Assembly: GCF_026427595.1 (NCBI RefSeq)
Contig: NZ_CP101527.1
Location: 1,559,001 to 1,623,000 of the forward strand
Source: Alkalimarinus sediminis
GTDB taxonomy: Bacteria > Pseudomonadota > Gammaproteobacteria > Pseudomonadales > Oleiphilaceae
Direction of reading: 5' to 3'
DNA length: 64,000 bases
In this document: positions 10,229 to 41,355 of the stretch, piece by piece
Layout of the letters: each line of letters opens with the position of its first letter
Numbering within the stretch: the first letter of the stretch is position 1
The notes under the pieces: model-generated
What the model was told of the DNA's origin: nothing
Database searches by the model: none
What the model saw: the letters and a program-made list of their open reading frames with translations, nothing else
Made by a program: the position numbers and the translations under genes

Positions 10229-10855
10229 TCACAACGCGTCTGCCAGACTTGTAATGTCGCTCCAATTTTTATCTGCGATAAGCTGACTAGAGACAAACCA
10301 TGACCCTCCAACGCAGCGCACGTTGTTAAGTGCCAAATATTCACTATAGTCTTGTTTGTTTATGCCGCCGGTTGGGCAAAATGTTATCTGAGGGAATGGC
10401 CCAGAAAAAGCTTTTAGCATACTTATGCCGCCTGCTTGAGCTGCCGGAAAAAATTTTAAAAAGTCGTATCCGCTATTAATTGCCATCATTATTTCGGTAG
10501 CTGTGGCGACACCAGGCAGATATGCCAAGCCGTGTTTCTCTGCTTTTAAAGCTATTTGTTCTGAGAAACCTGGGCTTACTATAAAACGCCCGCCGACACT
10601 TGCGACATCATCAACCTGTTCGGGTGTAATCACAGTACCTGCACCGGTAATGAGGTCAGGGTATTGATTAGAGAGAACCTCTATTGATTTTAGCCCTGCA
10701 GAGGTTCTTAATGTTATTTCTAGCAGTCTCACACCACCTTTCATCAAGGCATCGCCTAATGGTTTTGCATCAGACTCATGATCGATCACGATAACAGGAA
10801 TCACTGGCTTGGTTTTCATTAACCAGGCATCAAACATCGCATTAGACTTATTCAT
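10229..10855 (-). CDS. eda: 2-dehydro-3-deoxy-phosphogluconate (KDPG) aldolase
   Basis: Eda cleaves KDPG to pyruvate and glyceraldehyde 3-phosphate, the last step of the Entner-Doudoroff pathway. Family features are a TTL-like EITLRTSAGL, GAGTVI, the Schiff-base Lys in DFLKFFPA and the late FCPTGGI. At 208 residues it is of normal length. ATG 10855 has a GGAG site six bases upstream and is exactly in register with nine upstream ATGs spaced 17 bp apart; the last mini-ORF ends in a TGA that overlaps the eda ATG (ATGA). Confidence 0.96.
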   Translation of the reverse strand: MNKSNAMFDAWLMKTKPVIPVIVIDHESDAKPLGDALMKGGVRLLEITLRTSAGLKSIEVLSNQYPDLITGAGTVITPEQVDDVASVGGRFIVSPGFSEQIALKAEKHGLAYLPGVATATEIMMAINSGYDFLKFFPAAQAGGISMLKAFSGPFPQITFCPTGGINKQDYSEYLALNNVRCVGGSWFVSSQLIADKNWSDITSLADAL

Positions 10856-11019
10856 AACCTACTCCGTTTCATGAGCTACTTATTTTCATAAACTACTTAT
10901 CTTCATCAACTACTTACCTTCATCAACTACTTACCTTCATCAACTACTCGCCTTCATCAACTGCTCGCCTTCATGATCTACTCACCTTCATAAACCAGTC
11001 CCTTTCATGAACTAAACCG
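10850..11019 (-). repeat. Ten 17-bp tandem repeats forming a start-stop mini-ORF chain before eda
   Basis: Units of 17 bp (consensus CTTCATCAACTACTTAC on the plus strand) fill the edd-eda gap. Read on the minus strand, ATGs lie at 11008, 10991, 10974, 10957, 10940, 10923, 10906, 10889 and 10872, and the tenth at 10855 is the eda start. Each of the nine upstream ATGs opens a 5-6-residue frame (MKGTGL, MKVSRS, MKASS twice, MKVSS twice, MKISSL, MKISSS, MKRSRL) whose TGA overlaps the next ATG as ATGA or TGATG. Units look like duplications of the eda initiation region. Confidence 0.9.
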
Positions 11020-11061
11020 TTTTATCGCAGGCACTGTTTTTTGTGTAGTCTTACACTCGCA

Positions 11062-12867
11062 CTACTCAAAGGTAGTTGCGCCCTCTTCTGCTGATAACAC
11101 TCTATTTCTCATGCCTGCAAACAGCCCTCGCCCTGTGCTTAATGGGGGATTTGTTGCTGGCTTTTGTGATGTCACTGCAGGCCTGGTTGTTAGGTCTGCA
11201 TGTACCACTAAACTGCCGGCCACACTATCGATCTCAATGATGTCGCCATCTTGTACCCTTGCAATCATGCCGCCTGCTACACTTTCTGGCGTCATATGAA
11301 TCACAGATAGAACCTTGCCAGATGCGCCTGATAGCCTTCCATCGGTCACCAACGCAACGTTATAGCCTCGGTCTTGCAACACTCCTAGTGCGGGCATGAG
11401 TTTATGTAATTCAGGCATACCGTTAGCTTTCGGGCCTTGGTTTTTAACGACAATTACGCAGTCTTTATCGAGAGTTCCTTGCTCAAAGGCTTGTTTAACC
11501 GCTTCTTGTGAATTGAATACCACTGCGGGGGCAGTAATTTTGTGGTGATTTTCAGGTACTGCAGAGAGTTTAACAATAGCACGTCCTAGCTCACCTGTTA
11601 TTAAACACACTCCTCCGCTATTTGAAAATGGATCTTTAATATCCCGAATAATGGATGGATCAAGAGTTTTAGAGGCAGCTGACCATTGTAATGCGTTATC
11701 AATATAAACCGGCGCCTTGGTATAGTTATCAAGCCCTTGCCCGACGATGGTGGCCACATCGTTATGCAGCAACCCCTGAGATAGCAGTTCTTTAATAACC
11801 AGTGGCACACCACCCGCATGATGAAATTGGTTAATGTCCGCTTCGCCATTAGGGTACACTCTGGCCAGTAGCGGTACGACCTTAGATAGTTCTGCGAAGT
11901 CATCCCAGTCGATGATAATTCCCGCAGCCTTGGCAATCGCAACCAAATGGATGGTGTGATTGGTAGAGCCTCCTGTTGCAATCAAACCTATCATCGCATT
12001 CACAATAGACTTTTCATTAATCATCTTGCCTAACGGAGTATATTGTTCCGCCAGTACTGTTATCTCACATATACGTTCAGCGGCAACGCTAGTCAGGGTA
12101 TTACGGAGTTCTGTCCCTGGCGGAATAAACGAAGAGCCTGGTAGATGAATACCCAGAAACTCCATTAGCATCTGATTACTATTGGCTGTACCGTAGAACG
12201 TGCAAGTACCCGGAGAGTGGTAAGATTTAACTTCTGCTTCTAATAGCGCATCTGAATCGATTAAGCCTTCGGCAAATTGTTGGCGTATACTCGCTTTTTC
12301 TTTATTGGGGATACCCGTTGGCATCGGCCCTGCGGGTACGAATATCGCCGGAAGATGCCCAAACTCCAATGCGGCTATTAGTAAACCAGGTACAATTTTA
12401 TCGCAGATACCGAGATACAGCGCACCATCGAAGACGTTGTGACATAACGCCACTGAAGCAGACATAGCGATGACATCGCGACTAAAAAGCGAAAGCTCCA
12501 TCCCCGGTTGTCCTTGAGTTATGCCGTCACACATCGCCGGAACACCGGCTGCGAACTGTGCCACGTGACCTTTTTTAGCAATTGTTTTTTTGATTAACTC
12601 AGGATAGTTACCATAGGGTTGGTGAGCTGATAGCAGATCATTGTAAGCAGAAATAATGGCGATATTAGCATGCTGGGTTCGCTGTTTGAGAATCAACTTT
12701 TCACTATCAGATGATGCCGCTACATCATGAGCCAGATTAGTACAGCTAACCTGACTTCTGGCTGGGCCCGCTATGTAGGCTTGCTCAATTTTCTCGAGGT
12801 AGCGAGCCCTAGTAGACGAACTACGACTGACAATTCTATCGGTAATACGGGTAATCTGTTTGTTCAT
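11062..12867 (-). CDS. edd: 6-phosphogluconate dehydratase
   Basis: Edd is the iron-sulfur dehydratase that turns 6-phosphogluconate into KDPG. The IlvD/Edd family signatures are present: SAYNDLLSAHQPY, the Cys in MCDGITQGQPGMELS, the central GTCTFYGTANSNQM and the late GRLSGASGKV. At 601 residues it is full length. A GGAGACGG site precedes ATG 12867, 13 bp after the pgl stop, so it belongs to the zwf-pgl-edd-eda unit. About 200 bp separate it from eda, nearly all of it the 17-bp repeat array. Confidence 0.97.
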   Translation of the reverse strand: MNKQITRITDRIVSRSSSTRARYLEKIEQAYIAGPARSQVSCTNLAHDVAASSDSEKLILKQRTQHANIAIISAYNDLLSAHQPYGNYPELIKKTIAKKGHVAQFAAGVPAMCDGITQGQPGMELSLFSRDVIAMSASVALCHNVFDGALYLGICDKIVPGLLIAALEFGHLPAIFVPAGPMPTGIPNKEKASIRQQFAEGLIDSDALLEAEVKSYHSPGTCTFYGTANSNQMLMEFLGIHLPGSSFIPPGTELRNTLTSVAAERICEITVLAEQYTPLGKMINEKSIVNAMIGLIATGGSTNHTIHLVAIAKAAGIIIDWDDFAELSKVVPLLARVYPNGEADINQFHHAGGVPLVIKELLSQGLLHNDVATIVGQGLDNYTKAPVYIDNALQWSAASKTLDPSIIRDIKDPFSNSGGVCLITGELGRAIVKLSAVPENHHKITAPAVVFNSQEAVKQAFEQGTLDKDCVIVVKNQGPKANGMPELHKLMPALGVLQDRGYNVALVTDGRLSGASGKVLSVIHMTPESVAGGMIARVQDGDIIEIDSVAGSLVVHADLTTRPAVTSQKPATNPPLSTGRGLFAGMRNRVLSAEEGATTFE

Positions 12868-12880
12868 TACCGTCTCCCTG

Positions 12881-13588
12881 TTAGCGACTTGCCGGTGACC
12901 AATAAAGCTCTACCGGCACATCTGATTGGGTGAGTACTGCAGAAATAGGCAGTGATAAGCGATCATCAGAGTCGAGTTGAGATGCTCGCCGATAGACCGC
13001 TAACTTATCATCACCACTTATCAGCAGATAGATTTTTTTTGCCGTTAACAGCATCGATAGGGTTAATGATATCCGTTCTTTTGGTTCTACAGGCGCGCAC
13101 GCTGCGATGCATTTGAGTGAAGATTGTGCATCAAGCCCTTGTTCTAATGCAATGGTATGAGGAAACAACGATGCAAAGTGACCATCAGCCCCCATCCCGA
13201 GCACTACAAAGTCTACAGAGGGTAATTTGTTACCAAGCGTCTTATCTAACGATTCCTGCCCATCTTCAGCCGTGTTAGATGGAGTCTTTAAGGGTATAAA
13301 CCGAGCAGCAGCGGCTTTATTGTTGATAAGATACTGCTTAACCATTCGCTCATTGCTGTCAGGGTGATGATTCGGCAGCCATCGTTCATCTGTAAGAGTG
13401 ATAGTGACATTTTGCCAGGCCAAATCCGCCATGGATAACCGCTCATACAGTGCAATAGGCGTTTTACCGCCGCTAACCGCGATACTGACGTTTGCTGAAG
13501 TCTTTAGTTGGGTTGATAAATCTTTCTCTATTGCTTCTGCCAAAGCGGTGTTGAGACTATTGAAGCTATCGAACAAATGTTCTTTCAT
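12881..13588 (-). CDS. pgl: 6-phosphogluconolactonase
   Basis: It hydrolyses 6-phosphogluconolactone to 6-phosphogluconate in the cytoplasm. The SOL/DevB-type family pattern is visible: VSGGKTPIALYERL, TLTDERWLP..HPDSNERM and VLGMGADGHFASLFP. The 235-residue length is normal. Its ATG overlaps the zwf stop (ATGA), which implies translational coupling. Confidence 0.95.
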   Translation of the reverse strand: MKEHLFDSFNSLNTALAEAIEKDLSTQLKTSANVSIAVSGGKTPIALYERLSMADLAWQNVTITLTDERWLPNHHPDSNERMVKQYLINNKAAAARFIPLKTPSNTAEDGQESLDKTLGNKLPSVDFVVLGMGADGHFASLFPHTIALEQGLDAQSSLKCIAACAPVEPKERISLTLSMLLTAKKIYLLISGDDKLAVYRRASQLDSDDRLSLPISAVLTQSDVPVELYWSPASR

Positions 13589-15099
13589 GACCCCGACTCC
13601 TTGATGACACTATCTGCCTCATCGCCTTTTAACGGTCGACAGGTTTCGTCCCACAAACGCCCATCTTTGGCCAGTAGGAGTGTTGCAGCCGCCGGCCCCC
13701 AACTCCCTGCAATATATGACTCTGGCCCTTGCTCTGATTCATCCCAGTGTTTAAGTATGGGGTCTAGCCAATCCCACGCTGCAATTAGCTCATCTTGCCT
13801 AACGAATAGTGTTTGATTATTACTGATCACATCCCCTAGCAAACGCTCATAGGCGTCAGGAACTCGTTTACGGTTTAGGTAGTCAGGGCTTAAGCTTAAC
13901 TCTGTCGATCGAACACTCACGCCAGGGCCTCTTTTCTTTTCACACAGCATTAACCGAATGCCTTCGTCTGGTTGGAGCCTAAACACCAGTTTATTGGCCA
14001 TTGTGTTTTTATGCTGTAAATCGAAGATTGAGTGTGGCACCTCTTTAAAGTGCACCACAATTTCACAGGCTCGATGAACTAACCGTTTGCCGGTACGAAG
14101 ATAAAACGGAACCCCAGCCCAGCGCCAGTTATCAATTTCTACTTTCATCGCTACATAGGTTTCTGTTTCGCTTGAGGGGTCAACACCCTCCTCATCTAAG
14201 TAGCCTTCTACGGCATTCCCGTTTGAAATACCTGAAGCGTATTGCCCTCTTACTACTTTTTTATGAACATCTTGATCGGTTAGTGTGCGAAGCGCTCGTA
14301 GCACTTTCACTTTTTCATCTCGTACTGCATCAGGCGTGAATCTTGCCGGAGGTTCCATTGCAACAATACACAGTAGTTGCAGCAAATGGTTTTGCCCCAT
14401 ATCTCTTAGCGCACCTACGTGGTCGTAAAACTCCGCTCGTTCCTCTACGCCTAATGTTTCTGAAATGGTAATTTGAATATTATCGATATATTTCTGATTC
14501 CATTGAGACTCAAATATGGTGTTAGCAAAACGAAGCACCAGAAGATTTTGTACCGTCTCTTTACCTAAGTAATGGTCGATTCTGAATATCTGGTGCTCTT
14601 TAAAGTGACGACAAACAAGCTGGTTTATTTTAACTGCAGATTCAAGATTTGAACCAATGGGTTTTTCAAGCACGATACGGCTGTTGGGTGTGTTGATATG
14701 CGCTTTCGCTAGACCGCTGGCTATTTTTCCGTACAAAGCAGAAGGTGTGGCAAGATAAAAAATAGTATTTACGTTCGGCTTCTGGTCTACAACCTGTTTG
14801 AGTTCGCCATAGTTGCCAGGCTCAGTGGCATCAAATGAAAATGTGACAATGTGCTTGATGAAAGCGTTCCACTTAGTCTTAACAGTTTTATCGTCAAAAC
14901 TGTGTTTACTCATGATAGATTTTTGCAGGGCATCTAAAAAATCATCATGTTGGCGTCTAAAGAGCGCGATTAAACGCCAATCAGAGGGTAAACGCTCATC
15001 AAAGTGGAGTGAAAAAAGTGCCGGTAACAGTTTACGGGTAGCAAGATCACCGGTTGACCCGAACAAAACAAGATCAAATGGCTCATTTAACGGAATCAT
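13585..15099 (-). CDS. zwf: Glucose-6-phosphate 1-dehydrogenase
   Basis: It oxidises glucose 6-phosphate to the lactone with NAD(P)+. The dinucleotide-binding start (FGSTGDLATRKLLPALF), the EKPIGSNLESA motif and the substrate/catalytic motif RIDHYLGKE (about residues 172-180) are all present in 504 residues. It is the first gene of the zwf-pgl-edd-eda unit. The 115-bp upstream region (15100-15214) is AT-rich; I saw no clear HexR-type palindrome in it, and no hexR lies in the window. Confidence 0.97.
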   Translation of the reverse strand: MIPLNEPFDLVLFGSTGDLATRKLLPALFSLHFDERLPSDWRLIALFRRQHDDFLDALQKSIMSKHSFDDKTVKTKWNAFIKHIVTFSFDATEPGNYGELKQVVDQKPNVNTIFYLATPSALYGKIASGLAKAHINTPNSRIVLEKPIGSNLESAVKINQLVCRHFKEHQIFRIDHYLGKETVQNLLVLRFANTIFESQWNQKYIDNIQITISETLGVEERAEFYDHVGALRDMGQNHLLQLLCIVAMEPPARFTPDAVRDEKVKVLRALRTLTDQDVHKKVVRGQYASGISNGNAVEGYLDEEGVDPSSETETYVAMKVEIDNWRWAGVPFYLRTGKRLVHRACEIVVHFKEVPHSIFDLQHKNTMANKLVFRLQPDEGIRLMLCEKKRGPGVSVRSTELSLSPDYLNRKRVPDAYERLLGDVISNNQTLFVRQDELIAAWDWLDPILKHWDESEQGPESYIAGSWGPAAATLLLAKDGRLWDETCRPLKGDEADSVIKESGS

Positions 15100-31101: not shown

Positions 31102-31160
31102 TTACTTTGATAAGCTCCAGTGGTTATTACTTTGATAAGCACCATTGGTTATTACTTTGA
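31102..31160 (+). repeat. 25-bp tandem repeat over a gene's 3' end
   Basis: Two 25-bp units (31102-31126 and 31127-31151; TTACTTTGATAAGC..CA.TGGTTA) plus a 9-bp third start. The middle unit encodes the last residues and stop of the 31127-31390 gene, so the duplication lies just past its stop. Confidence 0.75.
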
Positions 31161-31390
31161 TGATGAGTCACTATCGCTTTACTGCTGGTACAAATTTTGG
31201 CAACCCTAGCGGTTTTAAGGTCAGTACTGGCCGCGATTTCATCTGTACTGCAAACATGATTGCCAGCATGTTTCTTTAGCAAGTTGATAATAGCGCTTTC
31301 GTCCATTTTGAACTTGACCCACATAAAAATCCAAACATGGGCAACAAGGGCTACGAAAACAACGATAGCAATAATTGAGGTGTCACTCAT
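31127..31390 (-). CDS. Small membrane-anchored protein of unknown function
   Basis: An N-terminal hydrophobic helix (about residues 6-26) is followed by a small soluble domain (CSTDEIAASTDLKTARVAKIC) that looks like a winged-helix-type fold. I do not recognise the family. It starts 24 bp after the PsiE-like gene, probably as part of one operon. Confidence 0.6.
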   Translation of the reverse strand: MSDTSIIAIVVFVALVAHVWIFMWVKFKMDESAIINLLKKHAGNHVCSTDEIAASTDLKTARVAKICTSSKAIVTHHQSNNQWCLSK

Positions 31391-40575: not shown

Positions 40576-40656
40576 ACATAACGCCGCGAACACAGGTGAC
40601 AAATGCGAAGCACGAAGTGCGTAGTATTTGGCATCCTGTGCTTTGCCTGGTTAATG
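40576..40656 (-). repeat. attC site 5
   Basis: 81 bp, CGCGAACACAGG family; attC of gene-less cassette A1. Confidence 0.9.
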
Positions 40657-40917
40657 GTGGGGTGTTGATAATGCTTATTTAGAACCATTCACTTCCCGAC
40701 CATGATATTTATTAATTTTGATCTTTGTTTGAACTTCATTCTCGCTTGATCAGGATAAGAATGATACCGACGAACTCTTGTTTTCAGCCTCTTACGAAGT
40801 GGCCTTAAACAAAACAAAAAACTACCCAACTGTTTAATGCTGGATAGTGGAACGACAAGAAGAAACCACTTAGCCGTTACCTATTCTCTTAACCCCTAAA
40901 CCTTCGAGGAGTAAAAC
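40657..40917 (-). other. Cassette 5: gene-less body, family A copy 1
   Basis: 261 bp with no ATG-started gene of useful length. With its attC it is a 342-bp cassette repeated directly next door (copy 2, three differences). On the minus strand an open frame without a standard start reads ...LRPLRKRLKTRVRRYHSYPD..., a stretch that is partly kept in family B. Confidence 0.85.
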
Positions 40918-40998
40918 CATTAACGCCGCGAACACAGGTGACAAATGCGAAGCACGAAGTGCGTAGTATTTGGCATCCTGTGCTTTGCCTGGTTAATG
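40918..40998 (-). repeat. attC site 6
   Basis: 81 bp, identical in type to site 5; the two cassettes are an exact-length tandem duplication. Confidence 0.9.
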
Positions 40999-41259
40999 GT
41001 GGGGTGTTGATAATGCTTATTTAGAACCATTCACTTCCCGACCATGATATTTATTAATTTTGATCTTTGTTTGAACTTCATTCTCGCTTGATCAGGATAA
41101 GAATGATACCGACGAACTCTTGTTTTCAGCCTCTTACGAAGTGGCCTTAAACAAAACAAAAAACTACCCAACTGTTTAATGCTGGATAGTGGAACGACAA
41201 GAAGAAACCACTTAGCCGCACCCTATTCTCTTAACCCCTAAACCTTCGAGGAGTAAAAC
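40999..41259 (-). other. Cassette 6: gene-less body, family A copy 2
   Basis: 261 bp, differs from copy 1 only in the GTTA/GCAC patch of TTAGCCG..CCTATTC near its right end. Confidence 0.85.
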
Positions 41260-41355
41260 CATTAACGCTTACATTTGCGGCGGTTTTGTAGTGAGGCACG
41301 AACGGAAAAACCGTCCAAGTCACGCAGTGGCTGATGCAACATGTTCTTGTTACAT
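41260..41355 (-). repeat. attC site 7
   Basis: 96 bp, CATTTGCGGCGGTTTT type with ACCGTCCAAG and CACGCAGTGGCTGATG; related to site 33. Confidence 0.85.

Follow-up and report, generated by a model that had tools for sequence, protein, structure and literature searches.

The region between edd and eda in the genome of Alkalimarinus sediminis invites comparison with two described systems. Bacterial intergenic minisatellites, or VNTRs, are recognized as tandem direct repeats with units of about 10–100 bp, and by local duplication together with absence at the orthologous site of relatives. In termination–reinitiation, stop and start codons lie close together, and among the gene pairs that have been tested coupling works best where the two overlap by −4 or −1 nt (PMC6728339, PMC10666635, PMC12548453). 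Coupling is nearly lost by ~20 nt (PMC10666635) and fades by 30–40 nt (PMC12548453); one study cited saw coupling over longer distances. Our literature search on tandem arrays of start regions, which is weak for subscription journals, found nothing relevant.

The locus lies in the window, the whole stretch of 64,000 nucleotides that we analysed. Four genes, zwf–pgl–edd–eda, form one same-strand cluster in which Pfam confirms Zwf, Pgl, Edd and Eda. All coordinates below are positions in the window, and SD denotes Shine–Dalgarno.

10229..10855, minus strand: eda, KDPG/KHG aldolase (PF01081; Pfam)
10862..10865, minus strand: GGAG SD of eda, inside the last mini-ORF (duplex energy dG −6.1 kcal/mol)
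10852..11008, minus strand: nine mini-ORFs of 5–6 codons, the last TGA overlapping the eda ATG (sequence)
10851..11020, minus strand: tandem array of ten 17-bp copies of a 12-nt SD/spacer plus ATGAA (sequence, TRF and congener comparison)
11009..11061, minus strand: 53-nt spacer between the edd stop and the outermost array ATG; the 12 nt next to that ATG are the SD/spacer of copy 1
11062..12867, minus strand: edd, 6-phosphogluconate dehydratase (PF00920/PF24877; Pfam), upstream of eda, with its stop codon at 11064–11062
12881..15099, minus strand: pgl and zwf, 6-phosphogluconolactonase and glucose-6-phosphate dehydrogenase (Pfam)

A short inverted repeat, GTGTA-AGAC-TACAC, lies on the minus strand at ~11040–11055, just past the edd stop. 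Elsewhere in the window, Tandem Repeats Finder (TRF) reports a 342-bp unit in two head-to-tail copies that are 99% identical (40579–41268) and a 25-bp unit in 2.4 copies that are 94% alike (31102–31161).

Tandem copies of the eda start region

The array is real, and as a tandem series of translation start regions it is unusually long. As a preliminary description of this DNA had reported, ten ATGs follow one another on the minus strand in exact 17-bp steps (11008, 10991, 10974, 10957, 10940, 10923, 10906, 10889, 10872 and 10855), the last being the start codon of eda; TRF independently returned the same 17-bp period with a score of 151. The 17-bp units stand head-to-tail and are ~87% alike. 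The frames opened by the nine upstream ATGs have 6, 6, 5, 5, 5, 5, 6, 6 and 6 codons and are followed by eda (208 codons). Every one of them ends in TGA (9/9), and at all nine junctions the stop overlaps the next ATG as ATGA (−4) or TGATG (−1), again in agreement with that description. Its count of nine repeats, with the eda initiation region as a tenth unit, is upheld by homology, by which the array consists of ten copies of 12 nt of SD and spacer plus ATGAA (10851–11020).

The copy farthest from eda, AAACGGTTTAGTTC-ATGAA, is similar to that of eda itself, AAACGGAGTAGGTT-ATGAA: both contain AAACGG, which is absent from the interior AAGGTAAGTAGTTG-type copies of the array. To judge from the letters, the ATAAAA just upstream of the array, including the ATA at 11025–11023, is therefore most simply taken as 5′ flank that predates the expansion. 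We had considered this ATA as a lost start codon, and dropped that reading in view of the resemblance between the outermost copy and the eda copy.

The stop–start overlap at each step is no independent observation and follows from the unit that is repeated, because a period of 17 is 2 mod 3 and the retained ATGA supplies the in-frame TGA of the preceding frame. As a repeat the array is far beyond chance; the start ladder just follows from its unit. The peptides read from the mini-ORFs are MKGTGL, MKVSRS, MKASS, MKASS, MKVSS, MKVSS, MKISSL, MKISSS and MKRSRL. These have no counterpart in three congeners, and thus we found no conserved mini-ORF peptide of the kind by which a leader peptide or uORF is recognized.

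It had also been noted that no ATG or stop is lost even though the units differ, and ATGA is indeed retained in 10/10 copies. Invariant columns across the ten copies number 7 of 17 (ATGAA and two others), and 10 of the 12 columns outside ATGAA vary. In a column permutation, which draws on one genome and on ten copies that are not independent, the invariance of all of ATGAA has P = 0.0034, that of ATG alone P = 0.05 and a five-column invariant run anywhere P = 0.048. Arrays without start codons in the same genome show similar clustering of invariant columns, with P from 0.025 to 0.06 in several. The invariance of ATGAA gives a hint of constraint on the starts, and the retention of ATG or ATGA is weak evidence for selection.

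Origin in a repeat-rich genome

The edd–eda gaps of three congeners (G001, G002 and G004) are 48, 32 and 40 nt long and contain a single good SD. Here the gap is 206 nt, which is close to a normal gap plus 9 × 17 (~53 nt and nine units). The preliminary description had proposed comparing repeat number in relatives; the array is absent from the eda locus in all three of these congeners (3/3). Another genome of the genus, G003, gave no Eda match although it is otherwise near-complete, and may have lost the Entner–Doudoroff branch. A blastn search of phage and plasmid records found no such array.

We took a repeat census of 1.663 Mb of the genome itself (39% of it; G000:C1:1-1663000, window included) by calling genes and running TRF, counting arrays with units of 10–30 bp and at least 2.9 copies. 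It contains 80 arrays with unit lengths of all phases, and 56 of these are non-coding (34/Mb). By an identical procedure, 0.4 Mb of G001 and 0.2 Mb of G092 yielded none outside genes, and 0.2 Mb of G002 yielded 4. The eda array, one of the 56, is therefore one outcome of a tendency to short tandem expansion that is general to this genome. It is the only one of the 56 in which the SD and start codon of a gene are repeated; one other, at position 763156–763221 of the genome (period 23), reaches a start codon, but what its unit repeats is the stop region of the gene upstream. The density of short-unit arrays in the non-coding DNA of this genome is exceptional, far above that of G001 and G092. Examples, by position in the genome, are the arrays at 139631 (period 17, 8.3 copies), 1344781 (period 17, 6.3 copies), 1280142 (period 15, 8.5 copies) and 1399549 (period 14, 9 copies).

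With ten direct copies of a 17-bp unit, duplicated locally and absent from the orthologous site of three congeners, the array is, on sequence grounds, best read as a minisatellite by two defining features, and not as a proven termination–reinitiation system. It is probably a lineage-specific intergenic minisatellite produced by ordinary repeat expansion, with the ladder as a by-product and no dedicated regulatory role. A 17-bp segment carrying the SD of eda, its spacer and ATGAA would have been duplicated head to tail to as many as ten copies, presumably by replication slippage or unequal recombination, and the copies would have diverged after expansion. A unit of this length (2 mod 3) that contains ATGA would stop each mini-frame on the following ATG or immediately ahead of it, and the stop–start ladder would thus arise as a by-product. 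Most translation of eda would start directly from the GGAG of the gene, and the upstream units might bring a slight gain by reinitiation or a slight loss by covering the eda SD. The effect of the array on Eda is likely to be small.

Shine–Dalgarno strength, RNA structure and promoters

The start codon and SD of eda are retained, and no other unit of the array pairs as strongly with the anti-SD (duplex energy dG −6.1 kcal/mol for eda, compared with −6.2 to −8.2 for the eda genes of congeners). Units −8 to −3 lie between −3.9 and −5.3 kcal/mol, unit −9 is at −2.4, and units −1 and −2 are both at −1.2; the medians are −4.3 for called genes and −1.7 for random ATGs. Six of the nine upstream units are thus near the median called gene of the genome, and units −1 and −2 are weaker than the median random ATG. 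The earlier statement that most units carry an SD-like site is accurate, but the two that adjoin eda (dG −1.2) are exceptions. The SD that lies inside each upstream frame, near the restart codon, is adequate for eda and the six units and weak for units −9, −2 and −1. Predicted structure in the array leader is no stronger than in shuffled sequence (z = +1.1), and there are no sigma-70-like promoters in the array, compared with 1.2 expected.

These values bear on two further explanations. A leader with little structure and a number of SD-like sites could raise the local concentration of 30S subunits near eda, in the manner of standby sites and without translation of the mini-ORFs. The six units at −3.9 to −5.3 and a fold no stronger than shuffled sequence are consistent with such a reservoir of ribosomes, but the two nearest units have weak SDs, and a ribosome on unit −1 would cover the GGAG of eda, making competition as likely as help. 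It also has no comparative support, and we consider it very unlikely. The repeats might instead be a DNA- or RNA-binding site unrelated to translation, whether for a regulator, as an internal promoter or as a processing site. A tandem spacing of 17 bp would suit repeated operators; the unit, however, has no dyad symmetry by eye, and the lack of sigma-70-like promoters, of a strong fold and of conservation in the congeners makes a binding site highly improbable.

Coupling geometry and a relay model

The preliminary description proposed that the frames form a relay. Under this proposal, ribosomes coming from edd or loading at any unit would terminate and reinitiate stepwise into eda, raising or buffering Eda under selection, with copy number tuning the output. 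Within the array the geometry is right for coupling, by analogy with the gene pairs in which −4 and −1 overlaps work best, and both the retention of ATGA in 10/10 copies and the usable SDs of six upstream units are in its favour. Entry from edd does not fit the proposal, as the edd stop is 53 nt upstream of the first ATG, beyond the ~20–40 nt by which coupling is nearly gone. Units −1 and −2, the last before eda, have no SD to speak of, and the three congeners have no array.

We also modelled the contribution of a relay to eda, with initiation proportional to exp(−0.45 dG), an equal per-step reinitiation probability r, assumed constants and occlusion of the eda SD ignored. Under these assumptions the contribution of the relay is 6%, 18% and 105% for r = 0.3, 0.5 and 0.8, respectively, so that the gain stays at or below 18% unless per-step reinitiation exceeds 50%. 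Only when r is high do units beyond the four closest to eda contribute much of the modelled gain. A ribosome that loads on the outermost unit would have a chance of r^9 of arriving at eda, or 0.002 for r = 0.5. By the model, for a relay of nine steps to be measurable, reinitiation would have to be highly efficient at each of them. The part of the proposal that concerns −4/−1 geometry stands, but a functional relay is unsupported, given the congeners, the weak SDs of units −1 and −2 and the periods of similar arrays (below). A nine-step relay into eda is possible, and we judge a selected one to be unlikely.

Start-region arrays in other genomes

We scanned viral contigs for at least three SD–spacer–ATG units of any period and kept arrays that lead into a frame, 60 codons or longer, whose start lies at the array. 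Among the matches listed, 11 such arrays on genes have a period that is not a multiple of three; 6 of these periods are 2 mod 3 (14, 17, 20, 20, 23 and 29) and 5 are 1 mod 3 (16, 19, 22, 22 and 25). Viral triples of all non-3n periods among the matches listed divide into 24 (2 mod 3) and 24 (1 mod 3). There is thus no preference for relay-compatible periods among the matches listed, which counts against the relay, and this result speaks for the class of start-region arrays and not for the eda array itself. The viral contigs with such arrays (L462, L262, L542, L584, L620, L161, L226, L249, L261, L520 and L603) have periods of 14 to 29. A separate scan of viral contigs for five ATGAs at 17-bp spacing gave 35 loci, few of them at gene starts.

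In bacteria, three gammaproteobacterial genomes, each of a different genus, have a 17-bp ATGA array with four ATGs that ends exactly where a gene begins, at a CoA-transferase-like gene (L036), lpxB (L047) and pgsA (L048), as named by eye from the protein sequences. With a 16-bp period as control, 0/3 true arrays lie on a gene start, compared with the three 17-bp cases; such a difference would tell against a plain minisatellite, but there are too few cases for a comparison. In the family and the class, the search for four ATGAs at 17-bp spacing found mostly plain repeats away from gene starts. In the family, although not in the class, a reversed-pattern control matched a larger number of genomes than the pattern itself did, and we therefore did not use this search as an enrichment test. 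A search for triples of GGAG with a spacer of 7 in 398 genomes of the phylum found one array, away from a gene start. ATGA repeats with an octamer unit, whose period of 8 is likewise 2 mod 3, occur in 7–11 copies at L661 (G221:C15), L658, L660, L663 and L664; that of L661 is directly followed by the SD of a frame of 82 codons. Overall, we regard it as quite unlikely that the eda array is a selected, copy-number-tunable chain of nine mini-ORFs, that is, a natural multi-step bicistronic leader, belonging to a recurrent class in bacteria and phages.

Comparison with known systems

When repeats expand through the start signal of a gene, a neutral process yields a ladder of coupled frames ready for use. 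Should these ladders affect expression, slippage in copy number would tune translation with promoter and protein untouched; if they do not, they are a clean warning that stop–start geometry can follow from unit length alone. Natural arrays with unit lengths of 14 to 29 bp, in both phases, are a ready test set.

The eda array is like bacterial intergenic minisatellites and VNTRs in its head-to-tail 17-bp units, in being lineage-specific and in being one of many in its genome; it differs in that its unit includes an SD and a start codon, and it therefore doubles as a series of start signals. With the gene pairs in which termination–reinitiation occurs at ATGA or TGATG (Huber et al. 2019, PMC6728339; 2023, PMC10666635) it shares overlaps of 4 or 1 nt, whereas its frames have 5–6 codons, no conserved product and are repeated nine times, and any coupling here is putative. 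In bicistronic design cassettes a short frame likewise runs over the SD of a gene and ends at its ATG, but the cassette has one engineered leader and eda has nine natural tandem mini-cistrons of 5–6 codons. The closest counterparts in form are the viral SD–ATG arrays (L462, period 14; L262 and L542, period 20; L584, period 29) and the bacterial L036, L047 and L048, in which at least three start regions end on a gene start, several with an ATGA ladder as in the eda array; these have only 3–4 copies, and the viral copies are mostly near-identical.
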